From Halosimplex salinum (GTDB lineage Archaea; Halobacteriota; Halobacteria; Halobacteriales; Haloarculaceae), in contig NZ_QWGG01000004.1 of assembly GCF_003730195.1 (NCBI RefSeq), forward strand, positions 62,001-126,000: DNA of 64,000 bases, read 5' to 3'. The translations under genes and the position numbers were made by a program. The notes under the pieces were generated by a model. That model saw nothing but the letters and a program-made list of their open reading frames with translations, was not told the origin of the DNA and made no database searches. Positions 49,537 through 59,074 of this stretch are shown here, one piece after another (positions within the stretch are counted from its first letter, which is position 1; each line of letters opens with the position of its first letter).

Positions 49537-49929
49537 CTACACCCTGATCCCAAGGCCGACCTCCATGACCAGGGAGACGGCGAGCACGAACAGTCCGGTG
49601 ACGAACACCTTCGCGTTCCGACCGACTCGCTGGTCGAAGGGGAGTCGCCGGCCACGGAGCGGTGGGATCTCCTGTATCTTCGCCTCCAGGCGGTTCTGGT
49701 GGGCCGACTCCATCGTGACCCGCTTTTTCTCCTTGTAGGAGGGGGTGGGCTGGATGCCGATGCTCCCCAGGCCGAAGAGGGCGACGCCGACGAGGAAGAC
49801 GGCGTACTTCGCGGCGACGAGCGTGCCGCCGATCAGGTAGCCGACGCCGACGGCTCCCGCGGAGACGAGTCCGCCCACGACGACGACCCAGAGGAGGAAC
49901 TCCGCGGCCCGGAGCCAGTTACTCGCCAT
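49537..49929 (-). CDS. Membrane protein at the end of the peptide ABC operon (DUF7555-like)
   Basis: 130 residues with three to four membrane helices: two N-terminal ones (AAEFLLWVVVVGGLVSAGAV and VAAKYAVFLVGVALFGLGSI) and one near the C terminus (VFVTGLFVLAVSLVMEVGL). A basic loop lies between them. The start overlaps the end of dppF by 11 bp, so it belongs to the transporter operon. I recall DUF7555. Its role in transport is unknown. Confidence 0.65.
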   Translation of the reverse strand: MASNWLRAAEFLLWVVVVGGLVSAGAVGVGYLIGGTLVAAKYAVFLVGVALFGLGSIGIQPTPSYKEKKRVTMESAHQNRLEAKIQEIPPLRGRRLPFDQRVGRNAKVFVTGLFVLAVSLVMEVGLGIRV

Positions 49930-51262
49930 CCGACTGCCGTCCGAGCACCGAGTCGACGCTCTCGTACTCGTCGGTGTGCCGGTGACAGTAACTCAGCCGG
50001 TTCGTCGGGCTGACCGTGTAGAGGTCCGGTCGCGTCGTGTCACACACGCTGTCGAACTCCTCGCCCATGTACTCACGAGCGCGGTTCGGGTACCCGTCCT
50101 TGACGTGGTCGGCGGCCTGCTCGACGTGGGCCATGACCTCCTCGGAGACGCCGGTTCCGTCGAAGAGGTCGGCGACAGTCTCGTCGATGTCGTCGTACTT
50201 CGAGAAGCGTCCGACCCGACGGCGGATCCGGTTCCTGATCGAGAGGTCGATCCGGCTCCGCTCGCGGATCACCTCGCGGAACCGCTCGATCGCGTTCCAC
50301 GTCTCGGCGTCCAGTTGCTCGTGCGTCTCCGGGCGGATCTTCGCCGGACAGCGGGTCGTGAACTGGCACCCCTCCGGCGGGTCTCGCGGGCTCGGCGGCG
50401 TCCCCGGGAGCGTGATCCGCTCCTTCTCGACGGTCGGGTCCGGTTCGGGGATCGCCGACAGTAGCGAGTGGGTGTACGGGTTGGCCGGGTCGGTGTACAG
50501 CTCCTCGGTGAGTCCGATCTCCATGATCTTCCCGAGGTACATCACGGCGACGCGGTCACAGATGTGACGGACCGCCGCGAGGTCGTGCGCGATGAACAGG
50601 TAGGTGAGGTCGTACTCCTCCTGGAGGTCCTCCAGCAGGTTGAGGATCTTCGCCTGCACCGACGTGTCGAGCGCGCTCACCGGCTCGTCGAGGACGACGA
50701 ACTCCGGTTCGAGTGCCAGCGCGCGGGCGATACCGATGCGCTGGCGCTGTCCCCCGGAGAACTGGTGGGGGTACCGGTAGTAGTGTTCGGGCTGGAGTCC
50801 GACCGAGGCGAGCAGGTCCTTGACCTTGTCGCGGCGGTCGCGCGGGCTCCCCACCTCGTGGACGTCGAGCGGTTCGCGGACGATTTCGCCGATCGTCATC
50901 CGGTCGTTGAGGCTCGACTCGGGGTCCTGGAAGACGATCTGGGCGTTGCGTCGCCACTGCTTGAGCTGTTTGCCCGTCAGCTCGGTGATGTCCGTGCCGT
51001 CGAACTCGACGCTGCCCTCCGTCGCCGTCTCCAGTTGCACCAGCGTCCGACCGAGCGTCGTCTTCCCACAGCCCGACTCGCCGACGAGCCCGAGCGTCTC
51101 CCCGCGCTGGATGGTGAAGTCGACGCCGTCGACGGCTTTCACCGGCGGGTCCGCCAGCACGCCCTGGCCGCCGTAGTACTTCTTCAGCCCCTTCACCTCG
51201 ACGAGCGTCTCGCCGACCACGGCGGGGTCAGCGCGGCCGCGCTGCTGTGTCATCTCGCTCAT
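49919..51262 (-). CDS. dppF: Peptide ABC transporter ATP-binding protein DppF-like, with C-terminal extension
   Basis: 447 residues. Walker A GESGCGKTT at 61-69, signature FSGGQRQR, Walker B VVLDEPVSALD, then the oligopeptide C-terminal domain with GCQFTTRCP near residue 305. After it comes an extra stretch of about 130 residues with helical segments (NAIERFREVIRERSRIDLSI) and a terminal part with Cys and His (SVCDTTRPD; LSYCHRHTDEYES). Typical DppF/OppF end about 20-30 residues after the Cys-rich motif. Overlaps dppD by ATGA. Confidence 0.9.
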   Translation of the reverse strand: MSEMTQQRGRADPAVVGETLVEVKGLKKYYGGQGVLADPPVKAVDGVDFTIQRGETLGLVGESGCGKTTLGRTLVQLETATEGSVEFDGTDITELTGKQLKQWRRNAQIVFQDPESSLNDRMTIGEIVREPLDVHEVGSPRDRRDKVKDLLASVGLQPEHYYRYPHQFSGGQRQRIGIARALALEPEFVVLDEPVSALDTSVQAKILNLLEDLQEEYDLTYLFIAHDLAAVRHICDRVAVMYLGKIMEIGLTEELYTDPANPYTHSLLSAIPEPDPTVEKERITLPGTPPSPRDPPEGCQFTTRCPAKIRPETHEQLDAETWNAIERFREVIRERSRIDLSIRNRIRRRVGRFSKYDDIDETVADLFDGTGVSEEVMAHVEQAADHVKDGYPNRAREYMGEEFDSVCDTTRPDLYTVSPTNRLSYCHRHTDEYESVDSVLGRQSDGE

Positions 51263-52455
51263 CGGCCGTCACCTCCGTCGACCGAATCGCGGCCACGGTC
51301 CCCGGTCGAGCGACCGCCGTCGGCCGCGACGTCGCCGTCGCCGGCGGCGCCTGACTCGTCGGTCCCCGAACTGTCGCCGCCCAGCCGTTCGTGGTAGGCG
51401 ACCGCCTCGCCCGTCGACATGTCTTCGGGGTAGAGGAGGCACGCGGCGGTGTGCTCGGTCTCGCCCTCGGTGACGCCGACGAGTTCCGGGTGGACCGCCT
51501 CGCAGTCGTCGAACGCCTGCGGACAGCGTGGGGCGAACCGACAGTACGTCGCCGGTTCGTTCGGCGTCGGCACGTCGCCCTCGATGGTCCGCAGTCGCTC
51601 CTGACCGGCCTGCTGACCCGGGATCGCCTCGAGCAGTCCCCGCGTGTACGGGTGACTCGGTGCGGCGAACAGCTCCTCCGTCGGCGCCTTCTCGACGATC
51701 TCGCCGGCGTACATCACGTTCACGCGATCCGTGACGTCGGCGATGACGCCCATGTCGTGCGTGATGAAGAGGATCGACAGACCCCGGTCCTCCTGAAGCT
51801 CTCTGAGGAGGTCGAGGATCTGCGCCTGGATGGTCACGTCCAGCGCGGTCGTCGGTTCGTCGCAGATCAGCACCTCCGGGTCGCAGGCGAGCATCATCGC
51901 GATGACCGCTCGCTGGCGCATCCCACCGGAGAACTCGTGGGGGTACTCCCCGAGTCGGCGGGAGGCGTCGGGGATCTGGACGGCCTCCAGCAGGTCGATC
52001 GCCTCCTCGCGAGCGGCCTCCCCGGTGATCCCGCGATTCACCTTCAGCGCCTCCCGGATCTGGTTGCCGACGGTGAACACGGGGTTCAGCGACGACAGCG
52101 GGTCCTGGAACACCATCCCGATCCCGCTCCCCCGGAGGTTCTGGTACTGCTTGGTGTCGTAGCCGGTGATCTCCTCGCCCTGAAATTTGATCGACGAGCC
52201 CGGCAGGATCTCGCCGGGTTCGTCGACGAGTCCCATGATCGAGCGGGCGGTGACGCTCTTGCCCGACCCGGACTCGCCGACGAGGCCGACGGTCTCGCCC
52301 TCGTAGATGTCGAGGTCGATCCCGTCCACGGCGCGGATCGTCTCCCGGTCGGTGTGGAACACCGTCTGGAGGTTGCGCACCGAGAGGATCGGCTCCTCCT
52401 CGGTCCGTCGGTCCTCGGGGACGTGCCGGTCGTCGCCGGCAGGAGGTGTGCTCAT
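51259..52455 (-). CDS. dppD: Peptide ABC transporter ATP-binding protein DppD-like
   Basis: 398 residues. Walker A GESGSGKS at 60-67, signature FSGGMRQR, Walker B VLICDEPTTALD, and the oligopeptide-type C-terminal motif RFAPRCPQAFDDCE. The extreme C terminus is a low-complexity Gly/Asp tail. It pairs with DppF to energise uptake. ATG overlaps the dppC stop (ATGA). Confidence 0.93.
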   Translation of the reverse strand: MSTPPAGDDRHVPEDRRTEEEPILSVRNLQTVFHTDRETIRAVDGIDLDIYEGETVGLVGESGSGKSVTARSIMGLVDEPGEILPGSSIKFQGEEITGYDTKQYQNLRGSGIGMVFQDPLSSLNPVFTVGNQIREALKVNRGITGEAAREEAIDLLEAVQIPDASRRLGEYPHEFSGGMRQRAVIAMMLACDPEVLICDEPTTALDVTIQAQILDLLRELQEDRGLSILFITHDMGVIADVTDRVNVMYAGEIVEKAPTEELFAAPSHPYTRGLLEAIPGQQAGQERLRTIEGDVPTPNEPATYCRFAPRCPQAFDDCEAVHPELVGVTEGETEHTAACLLYPEDMSTGEAVAYHERLGGDSSGTDESGAAGDGDVAADGGRSTGDRGRDSVDGGDGR

Positions 52456-53999
52456 CCTGCGGTCCCCCCTGCAGCGGCTTCCTCTTCGGCGCCGCCTTCG
52501 CTCTCGGGGTCGATCGCGTCGCGGATGCCGTCACCGAAGGCGTTGAGCCCGGTCACGAGGACGACGATGAGGACCCCCGGGATGAGCGCGATGTGCCACG
52601 ACTGAGTCGAGACGTACTCCCGACCCATCGAGATGGCTCGGCCCCAGGCGGGCGTCGGCGGGTTGATGCCGAGCCCGCTCCCGATGAACGAGAGCGCCGA
52701 GAGTGCGATGATGATACCACCGACCGCCATCGACCCGTAGATCAGCAGGTACGGGAGCACGTAGGGTAACATGTGTTTTCGCATCGTGACGCTCGGTCGC
52801 TGTCCGAAGCTCCGCGCGGCGTCGATCCACTCCTCCTCGGAGACCTGCAACGCGGGACCGCGGACCGCGCGCCACAGTCCCGGCCAGCCCGTGAAGCCGA
52901 ACACCAGCGCGAGGAGGAACCCGCCGTTGAACACGTCCGAGAGCCAGTGGCCCTGGAACGCCATCGCGACCATCAACAGCAGGAGTAGCTGTGGGATCGA
53001 CGTTATCCCGTCCGCAGAGAGGATCGCGGCCAGATCCACGATCCCCTTGTAGTACGCCGAGGCGAGCGACATGACGATCGCTATCAGCCCCGCGATCGCC
53101 ATCGAGAGCGCCGAGACCGTGAGCGATATCCGCGCGCCCATGACCGCGAACGTGAACAGGTCCCGCCCGTTGGTCAGCGTACCGAACGGGTGGAACCGGC
53201 CGAAGTCGTCGTAGGTCATCGGTCCGACGTTCTGTTCGCCGTTGCCCTTCGACTTGGAGTTGAAGTTGGCGTCGCCGACCAGTGCCGTTCGGACCTCACC
53301 GTCCTCGGCGTCGAAGTACTGCAGTTCGTGGCTGTACGGCGACTGGATGTTCTGTTCGACGGTCGTCGGCCCGAGCGCCGGGGCGAACAGGGCCATCGTC
53401 GTGAATATCAACACGACGATGATCCCGAACTGCGCCCAGCGGTGGCCGTCGAGTCGGTCGATCACGTCGTCGCGGGGCGTCCAGTCGGACTGCCGGTAGT
53501 TGGCACGGAAGATCTTCCAGCCGCGGAACGCCCAGAACGAGACGAACGCCGCGTACGCGTAGACGAGCGCCGCGCGGATCGCCCACGCGACCGCGGGTTC
53601 GAGCCCGAGGAAGGTGTTCTCCCACGGGCCGTTCGGTCCGGTCTTGTAGCCCTGATTCGGGATCGTCTCCCGGGAGAGCAGCGTCGGGAGGCTGTTCGCG
53701 GTGCTCCGGAACCCGTCGAGGGTCCCGCTGGCCGCCTGCTGGATGCCGACGATACTCTCGGACGCGCTCGGCGAGACGAGTCCGACTGTCACCTCGATGA
53801 GCGCGGTGACGGCGATGACCGCCGAGTCGACCACCAGCAGGAGTCCCGCGATGAACGCCCCGAACTCGAGTCCGATCAGCGCGACCGCGACGAGAGACCA
53901 CGCGATGGCGGGTTCGGGATTGGCCGCGATCCGCTCGCGGAGCGTCGTCTCGTCCTGCCGTTCGCGGTCTCGGGCCGTGTCAGTGAGCGTTGCACACAT
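52452..53999 (-). CDS. dppC: Peptide ABC transporter permease DppC-like, N-terminally enlarged
   Basis: 515 residues; usual DppC are about 280-320. The first 200 residues hold extra hydrophobic segments (AWSLVAVALIGLEFGAFIAG, VYAYAAFVSFWAF and IIVVLIFTTMALFAPALGP) before the standard permease domain. That domain has FGTLTNGRDLFTFAVMGARI and the EAA loop (EWIDAARSFGQRPSVTMRKH). A soluble stretch with a Ser/Thr-rich part lies between the first extra helices. Forms the channel with DppB. Confidence 0.9.
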   Translation of the reverse strand: MCATLTDTARDRERQDETTLRERIAANPEPAIAWSLVAVALIGLEFGAFIAGLLLVVDSAVIAVTALIEVTVGLVSPSASESIVGIQQAASGTLDGFRSTANSLPTLLSRETIPNQGYKTGPNGPWENTFLGLEPAVAWAIRAALVYAYAAFVSFWAFRGWKIFRANYRQSDWTPRDDVIDRLDGHRWAQFGIIVVLIFTTMALFAPALGPTTVEQNIQSPYSHELQYFDAEDGEVRTALVGDANFNSKSKGNGEQNVGPMTYDDFGRFHPFGTLTNGRDLFTFAVMGARISLTVSALSMAIAGLIAIVMSLASAYYKGIVDLAAILSADGITSIPQLLLLLMVAMAFQGHWLSDVFNGGFLLALVFGFTGWPGLWRAVRGPALQVSEEEWIDAARSFGQRPSVTMRKHMLPYVLPYLLIYGSMAVGGIIIALSALSFIGSGLGINPPTPAWGRAISMGREYVSTQSWHIALIPGVLIVVLVTGLNAFGDGIRDAIDPESEGGAEEEAAAGGTAG

Positions 54000-54002
54000 G
54001 AT

Positions 54003-55085
54003 TCACTCGTTCCCTCCTTCCAGCCCGATGCGCGGGTCGATTATCGTGTAGGCGATGTCCTGCGCGATGTTGAAGAAGACGATTATCAGGATGAAGACGT
54101 ACGTCAGCGCGCCGATGATCGGCACGTCCGAGGCGAAGATCGCCGAGAGGAAGAGGTTCCCCAGCCCCCGGATACCGAAGATCAACTCGACGAGTACCGA
54201 CCCGCCGATGAGCAGGTAGAACTCGCCCATGATCACCGGCAAGAGCGGGATCATGGCGTTCCTGGCGACGTGTTTCCCGATGATCGACCGCGTCGAGAGC
54301 CCCTTCGCCTTCGCCGTGTCGATGTACGGCGCGTTGATGCTCTCGAGGACCGCCGTCCGACCGATCCGGACCTCGTTCCCCATCGACGACGAACCCAGCA
54401 CGAGGGCGGCCGGGAGGATCCACTTGAACCCGGCGGCCCAGTTGTAGAGGTTCGGCACCGGTATCCGGAGCCACTCCAGGCTCGATATCGGTGTGAAACC
54501 GCCGAACAGCGCCCCGATCGCGTCCGAGGTCCCGATCACGTCGGTCGGGATGAGGAAGCCCCGGTAGAAGGAGAGGGCGCCGCCGGCCGAGAGGAGGCCG
54601 GCGAGCATGACGGCGAGCCAGAAGTTGGGCATCGCGCGCCAGACGATCCCGCCGAAGGAGGCGGTGTAGTCGCCCCACGTGTTCGAGCGGAGGCCGGCGT
54701 ACAGGCCGAGCGGGATACCGAATATCAGTGCGATGAGCACCGACCAGAAGCCCAGCCACACCGTCGCCGGCATCCGCTCCCAGACGAGCGCGCCGACGGG
54801 TTGCCCGCGGGTGACGACCCACGACTGGCCGAAGTTGAACGTGATCGTTTCGACGAGGAAGTCCTTGTACTGGATCCACAGGGGGACCGGACTGCCGTCG
54901 GGGTTCCGGAGTCCGAGCGCGATAGCCAGCTGCCGGGCCGTTTCCGGGTCGGAGTCGCGACCCAGGATCGCCGTCATCGGGTCGAACGGCGAGAGATAGA
55001 TGATGACGAACGTCATCGTGAGTCCGAACAGTACTACCGGGATCCCCAGGAGGAGCCGCTTCGCGATATATAGGAGTTTGTTCAT
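54003..55085 (-). CDS. dppB: Peptide ABC transporter permease DppB-like
   Basis: 360 residues with six or more membrane helices. N terminus YIAKRLLLGIPVVLFGLTMT is typical of DppB/OppB, and the EAA motif NAPYIDTAKAKGLSTRSIIG is near residue 250. The periplasmic loop (SRDSDPETARQLAIALGL-like, about 44-60) is also standard. The gene is 3 bp upstream of dppC and about 115 bp after the substrate-binding protein gene. Confidence 0.93.
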   Translation of the reverse strand: MNKLLYIAKRLLLGIPVVLFGLTMTFVIIYLSPFDPMTAILGRDSDPETARQLAIALGLRNPDGSPVPLWIQYKDFLVETITFNFGQSWVVTRGQPVGALVWERMPATVWLGFWSVLIALIFGIPLGLYAGLRSNTWGDYTASFGGIVWRAMPNFWLAVMLAGLLSAGGALSFYRGFLIPTDVIGTSDAIGALFGGFTPISSLEWLRIPVPNLYNWAAGFKWILPAALVLGSSSMGNEVRIGRTAVLESINAPYIDTAKAKGLSTRSIIGKHVARNAMIPLLPVIMGEFYLLIGGSVLVELIFGIRGLGNLFLSAIFASDVPIIGALTYVFILIIVFFNIAQDIAYTIIDPRIGLEGGNE

Positions 55086-55200: not shown

Positions 55201-57147
55201 TTACTCCGGATTGACGTGTTCGTCGTACGCCTCGATACCGCCGGGGAAGATCTGGGGCGGCGTGAGGTGGTAGGCCGGTTCGAAGCGGCTCTTGAACACG
55301 TTCTCCATGAACTCCGGCCGGTTGATGGCGTACGCCATCGCCTGGCGGACCGCCTTGGGCACTTCCTCCATGTTGAAGCCGATGTAGAAGGTCCCAAGTT
55401 CCGGCGTTCGAGCGTAGTTGACCGTCTCGCCGTTCTCGAGCTCGTAGGTCCCCAGGTCCCGTCCGAGGTCGTCGGTTTCGTCGATCGAGACGCTGTCGGC
55501 CTGGTACTGTGCGGTCGGCACGCCGCCGATGTCGGCGTTCTGGTTGAGGAAGCGGTTGTAGGTCGCCTGCGTCTCCGTGAGGATCGCCGCGTCGATCCCG
55601 TCGAAGGAAGCGCCCTCGCCGTGGTAGTCGTCGAAGGCGTCCATGACGAACTCGCCGCCGTTACCGGACTCCCAGTTGACGAACTCGAAGGGGCCACACC
55701 CGACGGGGTTCTGGGAGAACTCCTCCCACTCCATCTCGCCGTCGTAGCCCTCGATGTCCCCGACGATACCTTCGGGCACCGCGGAGAACGCCGAGTAGGC
55801 CAGCACGGACAGCGAGAACGCGAACGGCTCGTTCGTGGTGATCTCGAGCGTGTAGTCGTCGGTCGCCGACACGCCGATGGAGTCAAGCACGACGTTGCCG
55901 TCGTCGTCGGTCTCGTGTTCGATGCCCATGACGCTGATCGGGAATCGGGCGTTCGTCGAGTTCGTCGACGCCATCAGCCGCTTGATCGAGTACTCGAAGT
56001 CGGCGGCGGTCAGTTCCGAGCCGTCGTGGAACGTGACGCCCTCCTTGATGGAGAACGTGTACGTTCGGAAGTCCTCGCTGAGTTCGTACTCCGTCGCCAG
56101 GAGGTTCTCGACCTCGGTGGTCCCGTTCCGGTAGTTCGTCAGGGCGTCGAACATGTCCATGATCTTCCCGCCACTGGCCGTGTTGCCCGAGGCGATCGGG
56201 TCGAGGCTGCTGAACGTCGCGGAGGTCGTCGAGAGGCGGTCCTTGCCCTCGATCCCCGAGACGGACACGTTCGCCTTCGCCCGCGAGGGACCCATCGGGC
56301 CCGGCGGGTTGTAGTCGACGTAGTCGTACCACATGCCCTCGGTGACCGACTGGTAGAGGGGTAGCAGGGCCGCTTCCTGCCACATCCCCTCTTCCATGTT
56401 CACGGCCGCTTCACCGCGGATCTGTGCGGCGTCCTCGGTGTCCTGCGGGTTGTCCTCGATCCTGTCGAACTGCTCGGTCATGAACTGCCGAACTTCCTCG
56501 TCGGCGTCGGCGTCCTCGGACCAGAAGATACGCGCGCCGTTGGCGGCGTCGTTCTCGTCGTAGACGGTGTTTTCCGGGTCGAGCAGCTGGACGAAGTTCT
56601 GCGGGCCGGGGTAGTCCGCGATCCACCCCAGCGTGTAGGCCATGTGGTTGCCGTTGCGGGTGGTCTCCAGCAGCGGCGAGAACGCCGCTTCGCTCTGGTT
56701 CATGTCGATGTACGCAGACTCCAGCCGGCTGGCGATGGTGTCCGCCATCTCCGTCCACGTCGGGCTGGTGTACTGGAGCCAGTCGAGGGTGAACCGATTG
56801 TCCTCACCGTAGCCGGCCTCCTCCATCACCTGCTGTGCCTCCTGAATTCGCGTCTCGCCGACCCCGTACGGATACCCGTTGATCGTGATCGGCCCAGTGT
56901 CGGTGTCCGTCTCGCCGTCACCGTCCGTTCCATCGCCGTCACCGTCGCCGTCGCCGTCGCCGCCGCCGTCACCGTCGCCGTCCATCCCGTCGCCATCGCC
57001 GTCGCCGTCGCCGGCACCGTCTCCCGGCGTGTCAGTGTCGTTCCCGTCGGATCCACAGCCCGCGACCATGGAAGTGAGGGTCGCAGCGCCCGTCGCTTTC
57101 AGAAACCGTCGTCGGCTAGTGTCGGAATCGTCGGATTCGCGAAGCAT
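55201..57147 (-). CDS. dppA: Peptide-type ABC substrate-binding lipoprotein with circularly permuted SBP family 5 domain
   Basis: 648 residues. A Tat signal SRRRFLKATGA leads to a lipobox SMVAGC (Cys31), then an Asp/Gly linker (about 32-85). Residues about 88-285 match the usual C-terminal part of SBP_bac_5: IQEAQQVMEEAGYG, then LGWIADYPGPQNF (173-185), then MWQEAALLPLY. Residues about 292-648 match the usual N-terminal part: LDPIASGNTASGGKIMDMFD, SEDFRTYTFSIKEGVTFHDG (357-376), NPVGCGPFEFVNW, and VRQAMAYAINRPEFMENVFK near the end. The order of the two parts is swapped relative to DppA/OppA. Function: binds oligopeptides or similar solutes outside the cell. TATA box 28 bp upstream of the ATG. 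Confidence 0.9.
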   Translation of the reverse strand: MLRESDDSDTSRRRFLKATGAATLTSMVAGCGSDGNDTDTPGDGAGDGDGDGDGMDGDGDGGGDGDGDGDGDGTDGDGETDTDTGPITINGYPYGVGETRIQEAQQVMEEAGYGEDNRFTLDWLQYTSPTWTEMADTIASRLESAYIDMNQSEAAFSPLLETTRNGNHMAYTLGWIADYPGPQNFVQLLDPENTVYDENDAANGARIFWSEDADADEEVRQFMTEQFDRIEDNPQDTEDAAQIRGEAAVNMEEGMWQEAALLPLYQSVTEGMWYDYVDYNPPGPMGPSRAKANVSVSGIEGKDRLSTTSATFSSLDPIASGNTASGGKIMDMFDALTNYRNGTTEVENLLATEYELSEDFRTYTFSIKEGVTFHDGSELTAADFEYSIKRLMASTNSTNARFPISVMGIEHETDDDGNVVLDSIGVSATDDYTLEITTNEPFAFSLSVLAYSAFSAVPEGIVGDIEGYDGEMEWEEFSQNPVGCGPFEFVNWESGNGGEFVMDAFDDYHGEGASFDGIDAAILTETQATYNRFLNQNADIGGVPTAQYQADSVSIDETDDLGRDLGTYELENGETVNYARTPELGTFYIGFNMEEVPKAVRQAMAYAINRPEFMENVFKSRFEPAYHLTPPQIFPGGIEAYDEHVNPE

Positions 57148-57362: not shown

Positions 57363-57911
57363 TTAGTCGTGGATTTCGACGGATTCGAGCAGCACCGTGT
57401 CGATGGGACGGTCGCTGGGGTCGGTCTCGACGTTTCCGATGGCTTCGACCACGTCCATGCCGTCGACGACTTCGCCGAAGACGGCGTGTTTGTCGTCGAG
57501 GTGGGGCTGGGCGTCCAGCGTGATGAAGAACTGCGAGCCGTTGGTGTCGGGGCCGCGGTTGGCCATCGAGAGCTTTCCGGGTTCGTCGTGGCGCAGGTCG
57601 TCGTGGAACTCGTCGTCGAACGTGTAACCCGGGCCGCCGCGGCCGGTGCCGGTCGGGTCGCCGACCTGGAGCATGAAGTCCTCGATGACGCGGTGGAACT
57701 CGACGTCTTCGTACAGCGGGTCGACGCGCTTCTCGCCGCTCTCGGGGTCCTCCCAGGCGCCCTCGCCCGGACCGACCTCGGCCTCCTCGTAGTCCGCTTC
57801 GGTCGCGTGGTCGACGAACGCCTCGACGGTGCGGGGCACGCGGTCTTCGAACAGTCGAACCTCGATGTCACCTTCGGAGGTGTGGAGTGTCGCAGTCAGG
57901 TCGTCACTCAT
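57363..57911 (-). CDS. Cyclophilin-type peptidyl-prolyl cis-trans isomerase
   Basis: 182 residues. Cyclophilin motifs: TSEGDIEVRLF at the start, FHRVIEDFMLQVGDP with the catalytic Arg, then NGSQFFITL and HAVFGEVVDGMDVV. An acidic insertion of about 20 residues (EVGPGEGAWEDPESGEKRVD) precedes the FHRVI motif and is a common haloarchaeal feature. Cytoplasmic, as no signal is present. The ATG at 57911 is next to a short promoter region. Confidence 0.94.
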   Translation of the reverse strand: MSDDLTATLHTSEGDIEVRLFEDRVPRTVEAFVDHATEADYEEAEVGPGEGAWEDPESGEKRVDPLYEDVEFHRVIEDFMLQVGDPTGTGRGGPGYTFDDEFHDDLRHDEPGKLSMANRGPDTNGSQFFITLDAQPHLDDKHAVFGEVVDGMDVVEAIGNVETDPSDRPIDTVLLESVEIHD

Positions 57912-57967
57912 AGTTCGAGGGAGCACCGGCGCGAAGAAAACGCTGGTGGTACCGCTGTCCGATCCGG

Positions 57968-59074
57968 TCACATCGACGGGCCGACTCGCGTGATCGCCGA
58001 CGCCTCCAGCCCGTGCTCCTCCGCGCGCACGCGCTCGCCGCCCGCGACCGCCCGCACTCGGCCGAGGAGATCATCAACGTCGGCCGCTCTCGCGTCCACG
58101 TCGACGTCGTCGCCGACCGCAGACAGCGTCGCCGCGTCGCCCGAGACCTTGAGGACCGGCGCGACAGGGTGCCCCGTCGGCACGCCCTCGCCGGTGACGT
58201 GGACCACGAGTTGCGCCCCGGCCGCGACCAGCCCCGTCGCTGCCTCCTCGAACCGGGACGGCGCGTCGACGAGGGCCAGTCCCTCGTCGAGATCCGTGCG
58301 CTCGCCGTAGGCGAGCACGTCCCGGATCGGCTGGTCGCCCCAGGCCCGCGTCACGGCGTCGAACTCGTGGTCCGCGGCGTCGCGCCCGACCCGGGACGCC
58401 CGGGCAGGCTGACCGCGGTGGCGTTCGACCAGTGCCCGGACGGCCTCGGCGGCCTCGTCGTTCGCCGCCCGCTTCGCCGCGGCGTCGGGGTGTACCACCG
58501 CGCGCTCGCTCCCTGCCGCGACCAAACGCGCGCCCAATCCGACTAGTTCGTCGACGAGCTCGCCCACGAGCGGATCGGCCGTCTCGCGCGTCGATGCCGA
58601 GAGGTCACCGGAGACGACGCCGACCGTGAGATCCGAGAGCGCGGCCGTCCGCTCCGCACCCGACCGCTCGGACGCACGCAGATCCTCGACGGCGGCGACG
58701 CCGGCCTCGACGGTCGCGTCGGTGCCGCCGGCGTCCTGGATCGCCGTCTGGCGGACGGGAACCCCCAGGTCCGTCAGGTCCGCGGCCACGTCGTCGCTCT
58801 GGATCGACTCACAGCCGAGGCCGACGACGAGCGTCCCTGCGACGTTGGGGTTCGAGCCCACGCCCAGGAACGCGCGGAGCGTCTGGTCCTTGTCCGCGCC
58901 GATCTGCCCGCAACCGTGGTCGTGCGGGGCGCTCGCCGCTCCCGGCACCCCTTCGGCGATGCGGTCGGCGACGACGCGCGAGCAGATGACCGACGGGAGG
59001 ACCAGCACCCGGTCGCGGACACCGACGCCGCGCTCGCCGCGGTCGACGGCGGAGAACCCCTGTCGGAGGCTCAC
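57968..59074 (-). CDS. UxaA-family dehydratase paralogue A (keeps N-side motifs only)
   Basis: 368 residues homologous to the large domain of altronate/galactarate dehydratase. It keeps HDHGCGQIG (about 51-59) and GLGCESIQ (about 85-92), equivalent to HTYGCSQLG and GLGCENNQ of E. coli UxaA. It lacks the CGGSDxxSGITANP block (the region reads GVVSGDLSASTRETADPLVG) and the PSPGNxxGGxTTxEEKS block. The C-terminal EGVPTGHPVAPVLKVSG is conserved. The GTG start overlaps the SAF gene stop. Likely a partner subunit with the paralogue at 59391. Confidence 0.82.
   Translation of the reverse strand: MSLRQGFSAVDRGERGVGVRDRVLVLPSVICSRVVADRIAEGVPGAASAPHDHGCGQIGADKDQTLRAFLGVGSNPNVAGTLVVGLGCESIQSDDVAADLTDLGVPVRQTAIQDAGGTDATVEAGVAAVEDLRASERSGAERTAALSDLTVGVVSGDLSASTRETADPLVGELVDELVGLGARLVAAGSERAVVHPDAAAKRAANDEAAEAVRALVERHRGQPARASRVGRDAADHEFDAVTRAWGDQPIRDVLAYGERTDLDEGLALVDAPSRFEEAATGLVAAGAQLVVHVTGEGVPTGHPVAPVLKVSGDAATLSAVGDDVDVDARAADVDDLLGRVRAVAGGERVRAEEHGLEASAITRVGPSM

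Follow-up and report, generated by a model that had tools for sequence, protein, structure and literature searches.

The gene at positions 55201-57147 of the window, the 64,000 nucleotides of Halosimplex salinum DNA analyzed here, very probably encodes a membrane-tethered lipoprotein that binds substrate for a Dpp/Opp-type peptide importer and whose segment order has been circularly permuted in evolution. By homology the protein is a member of the SBP_bac_5 family, and by topology it is a circular permutant. Its relatives likely reflect recurrent natural permutation (approximately six times, at three shared cut sites and twice in a single lineage), either because relocation of the membrane tether was favored or freely tolerated, or because recombination in repetitive linkers generates permutants unusually often. 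The gene and its parts are as follows.

55201-57147, minus strand: type A circularly permuted SBP_bac_5 lipoprotein gene, 648 codons, ATG start
57055-57147, minus strand: Tat-like signal peptide and lipobox, residues 1-31, ending ...TSRRRFLKATGAATLTSMVAGC, recognized from the sequence
56887-57054, minus strand: Asp/Gly-rich low-complexity linker, residues 32-87, recognized from the sequence
56263-56886, minus strand: C segment, residues 88-295, equivalent to canonical positions 354-561 and now first, delimited by Pfam and doubled-profile alignment
55204-56262, minus strand: N segment, residues 296-648, equivalent to canonical positions 1-353 and now last, delimited by Pfam and structure match

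The leader carries a lipobox (..VAGC31) and gives a weak match to the Pfam TAT_signal family, under the cut-off; the N segment opens at a new C-to-N junction, ..SRAKANVSVSGIEGKDRLSTTSATFSSLDP... A preliminary description had claimed that the two parts of the protein are swapped relative to DppA and OppA, and all the motifs that it named were found. The protein matched PF00496 with 218.9 bits (E 1.4e-64; gathering score 32.4). Matched to SBP_bac_5 apart, the halves came out in reversed order, the N-terminal 298 residues aligning to profile positions 238-361 of 368 (E 1e-10) and the C-terminal 350 residues to positions 1-260 (E 9e-54), which bears out the swap; the Pfam result held no full-length match in the normal order. 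An NCBIfam scan returned no binding-protein model above its cut-offs. When the protein was aligned in its natural order with solved OppA/DppA chains, its second half fell on the chain start, and in the best solved-chain match its first half aligned after the second. After rotation to canonical order, the protein aligned without a break (query 14-449 on 8upi 23-421), and the best solved-chain score went up from 93.8 to 103.1 bits. These data support reading the protein as a genuinely circularly permuted version of the SBP family 5 fold.

Relatives were classified with a doubled profile built from the type A alignment (A1), on which any rotation aligns as one stretch. The window protein gave one unbroken match, at 557-1121, and each of the 136 classified proteins (135 close haloarchaeal homologues and a distant outgroup) corresponded to one continuous circular stretch. 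Canonical order was found in 59 of the 135 close homologues and a permuted order in the other 76. Forty proteins of type A start at canonical position 354 and end at 352, four of type B start at about 122 and end at 119, and 32 of type C start at about 488 (cut 476/488) and end at 476. A doubled query against 391 genomes of the class revealed only these four ranges among the matches listed. Canonical and the three permuted kinds coexist at approximately 40-60% identity beside related transporter operons. The fully read members of each type have a Tat/lipobox leader and a linker ahead of the new start, and a lipobox-like motif lies upstream of the domain in 40/40 A, 4/4 B and 28/32 C proteins. 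As leader and linker stay in front of the domain in every type, permutation shifts the membrane tether. Type C proteins give a single, normal-looking Pfam stretch and would escape a domain search, because PF00496 is a "middle" model; in practice, permutations of this kind remain hidden in routine annotation.

AlphaFold2 modeling of type A, from an alignment of type A proteins and canonical fragments, yielded one compact fold (pLDDT 94.2, pTM 0.89). Model residues 207-560, the N segment, aligned to OppA 1-331 with a Z score of 25, and sequential structure aligners paired only these residues, leaving the C segment unpaired. In the type C model (pLDDT 90.2, pTM 0.88), 426 residues were co-linear with OppA 1-445, again at Z 25. 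These OppA alignments place the C cut at about residue 444 and the A cut at about residue 331, in what would be a C-lobe loop before the "EAQQVMEEAGYG" helix instead of at the hinge-side boundary first proposed. Following the scheme for EppA, in which Domain I comes first and Domain III is contiguous in the second lobe (PMC7312458), the ends of A and C would lie in the C-lobe and those of B in the N-lobe. The loop at which type B is cut (P0001 residues 410-420) holds a variable, 21-residue T/E-rich insertion in some Halosimplex type A proteins (L016, L019 and L020), which marks the loop as a permissive site.

The preliminary description had allowed that two separate genes might have been joined by an assembly error. 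The window does come from a draft assembly of 28 contigs whose estimated contamination is 4.6%. However, the type A order is shared by 40 distinct proteins with the same junction sequence, 39 of them homologues additional to the window protein. A family-level search recovered the order over the whole length from each of the genus's 8 genomes, at 80-100% identity, and from other genera at 50-63% identity, and order- and class-level searches widened the set of co-linear homologues. It occurs in Halosimplex carlsbadense, H. pelagicum, H. aquaticum, Halobacterium salinarum and Halorubrum distributum, and also in Halolamina, Halorhabdus, Halapricum, Haloquadratum, Halosegnis and Halonotius; the genes of H. 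pelagicum and H. aquaticum sit on closed chromosomes. Because co-linear homologues exist in many genera, closed chromosomes among them, a chimeric join of two neighboring SBP genes is excluded, and we give it a negligible probability. It is also highly improbable that the rearranged gene is decaying or non-functional. The frame is open in the 40 type A members across several families, the operon is conserved, an aspartate of the GWIADYP motif is retained in all 40, and dN/dS within the genus is approximately 0.15-0.28 by a rough Nei-Gojobori estimate, with both segments alike.

The permuted gene heads an ordinary dppBCDF operon, with two permease and two ATPase genes adjoining.

54003-55085, minus strand: DppB-type permease, the first downstream gene (BPD_transp_1, E 7e-31; conserved order)
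52452-53999, minus strand: DppC-type permease (BPD_transp_1 and OppC_N)
51259-52455, minus strand: DppD-type ATPase (ABC_tran and oligo_HPY)
49919-51262, minus strand: DppF-type ATPase, the second of the operon (44% identity to the DppD ATPase; equivalent position in related operons)

DppB, DppC and DppD were confirmed by Pfam. The SBP gene stands together with dppB, C, D and F in nearly all operons examined with their neighbors, in all four topologies, and no dpp genes were found among the neighbors of canonical loci L091 and L170. The latter (L170:4683-10618, G442) contains two canonical family SBP genes separated by approximately 2 kb, and the stretch read there has no dppBCDF. Immediately upstream of the permuted gene, at 57363-57971 on the minus strand of the window, lies a cyclophilin-type peptidyl-prolyl isomerase gene whose position is kept in related Halosimplex genomes. 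Operon and family together point to a role of the window protein in transport. In E. coli DppA, D436 (mature D408) pairs with the amino group of the bound dipeptide (PMC12136057), and the GWIADYP aspartate aligns with this residue, the column being taken from the solved-chain alignment numbering. It is kept in 40/40 A and 4/4 B proteins and replaced by Ser in 31/32 of type C (GWIWSW). The GWIWSW clade includes L097, L093 and L044, and the independent C-type L052 retains Asp. The large C clade may thus bind something else.

For phylogenetic analyses, all sequences were first rotated to canonical order. The tree needs six order changes: one for A, three for B and two for C. The large C clade has one origin, as sister to canonical L109 of Halobiforma haloterrestris, and the second C origin is L052 (G143), among canonical L181-L183. 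B arose inside A (L081 of Haloglomus irregulare with L043 of G048), in G282, where L202 is sister to canonical L085 of Halospeciosus flavus, and in G231 (L203, on a weakly placed branch). AU tests, run after the tree had been seen, rejected trees with all C proteins in one clade (p 1.75e-63), with B kept outside A (p 4e-6), with all B proteins in one clade (p 5e-4) and with L202 joined to L203 (p 0.002). Thus, the family has undergone at least five and probably six changes of order, at three places; five events are well supported, that of L203 being less certain, and one lineage was permuted twice, from canonical to A to B.

Each permutation most likely began with the domain, or the gene, being duplicated in tandem and in frame. 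The first copy would then have lost its redundant front, bringing leader and linker up to a loop, and the second its redundant end at the same loop. The product would be an ordinary Venus-flytrap binder with its lipid tether leaving from another surface, predicted from the solved-structure alignment and the EppA scheme to be the far lobe for A and C and another N-lobe site for B; with a long acidic linker, such moves are probably tolerable. A trace of the duplicated ancestor at a new junction was found for the A-to-B event only. The inner junction of B-inside-A proteins reads EHWQG-YDGSDTGGSDFE-GLSGYPYSP, not the canonical short form (e.g., YTEHAESSYPYGY), and consists of an A-protein end, a linker like that before A domains, and an A-domain start. 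This linker is absent from canonical members, and its retention at the junction suggests that B arose there through tandem duplication of a type A gene. L202 has the loop sequence at both ends, with ..ETVTVEQ at its end and TTTVEQEVYKPG at its start. Among the loci read, a limited sample in which frames of more than 900 residues and tblastn matches running past stop codons were inspected, no fused tandem intermediate was found. Four candidates were rejected: the N terminus of L054 (975 residues) is kinase-like, the frame after the stop codon in G215 is unrelated and gamma-glutamyltransferase-like, and G358 and G364 are chance extensions.

Duplication and fission/fusion are the two accepted models of circular permutation (PMC3320104). 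Under the latter, the segments would once have been separate genes, or would derive from different paralogues, and have been rejoined in the other order, and the clean loop boundaries on which they sit fit such a history. We nevertheless consider it improbable: it requires approximately six separate splits, and split halves were not seen in the loci read. In addition, separate trees of the two halves agree on the neighbors of L043, L202 and L052, and this agreement argues that the halves have one source and are not from different paralogues. The type A linker retained at the B junction and the loop ends of L202 favor duplication. A one-step event, in which a DNA circle or a transposed domain segment reinserted behind the leader, perhaps aided by the repetitive Asp/Gly linker DNA, is likewise unlikely. 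It would be consistent with recurrence at three sites, with the highly repetitive linker sequence and with the absence of intermediates among the loci read, but it has left no direct trace, and duplication would account at least equally well for the loop sequence at both ends of L202.

The natural circular permutations on record are usually isolated cases, old and strongly diverged. In the haloarchaeal family, the order of events from canonical to A to B is readable from the tree, and the family makes it testable how permutants originate, which loops tolerate new ends, and whether the anchoring point matters for docking on the transporter. As far as the sequences tell, the tether moves may have been selected, or may be neutral and tolerated via the long linker.

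Both segments of the window protein match the canonical SBP_bac_5/cluster C binders such as E. coli DppA and OppA in sequence, and the N segment of its predicted fold matches at a Z score of about 25; it has the dppBCDF operon in common with them and, like other archaeal binders, carries a lipoprotein leader. It differs from DppA and OppA in the rotation of its segments and, presumably, in that its N-terminal tether exits another lobe. The preliminary description had also pointed to no earlier account of permutation in this family, allowing that others may have noted it. In the open-licence literature, where absence is weak evidence, we found no permuted family 5 binding protein and no haloarchaeal case, nor a description of recurrent permutation at three shared sites in one binding-protein family. 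The only relevant report is a precedent among ABC substrate-binding proteins, from another cluster: Tp0684 (TpMglB-2) of Treponema pallidum, a naturally permuted, tethered protein designated "Type Ic / Cluster Bc" (PMC4990184), for which membrane tethering was proposed as a possible driver of permutation (PMC4990184). Tp0684 is a cluster B glucose/galactose binder of another family, with one permutation type reported and a poorly conserved permuted part, whereas both parts of the haloarchaeal permutants are clearly homologous to their counterparts. The window protein matched family 5/cluster C and no sugar-binding family, and by these sequence matches it does not have the cluster B glucose/galactose-binding fold. 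Natural permutants within one family, explained by the duplication model, are also known for DNA methyltransferases and for saposin/swaposin (PMC3320104). Both have other folds than the haloarchaeal proteins, and for methyltransferases intermediates are documented, whereas none were seen among the haloarchaeal loci read.

Some relatives carry additional domains. A type C SBP at L054:4364-7288 (G003) follows a protein-kinase-like domain in a single open frame of 975 residues; the kinase-like match (PF00069, E 2e-5) is under the family cut-off, and the product may be a sensor kinase that includes a permuted SBP domain. Two canonical SBPs of Halorarius (L108:5860-7905 and L119:5812-7827) have C-terminal extensions of 73-77 residues, that of L108 being dockerin-like (PF00404, E 1.6e-4, just below the cut-off).
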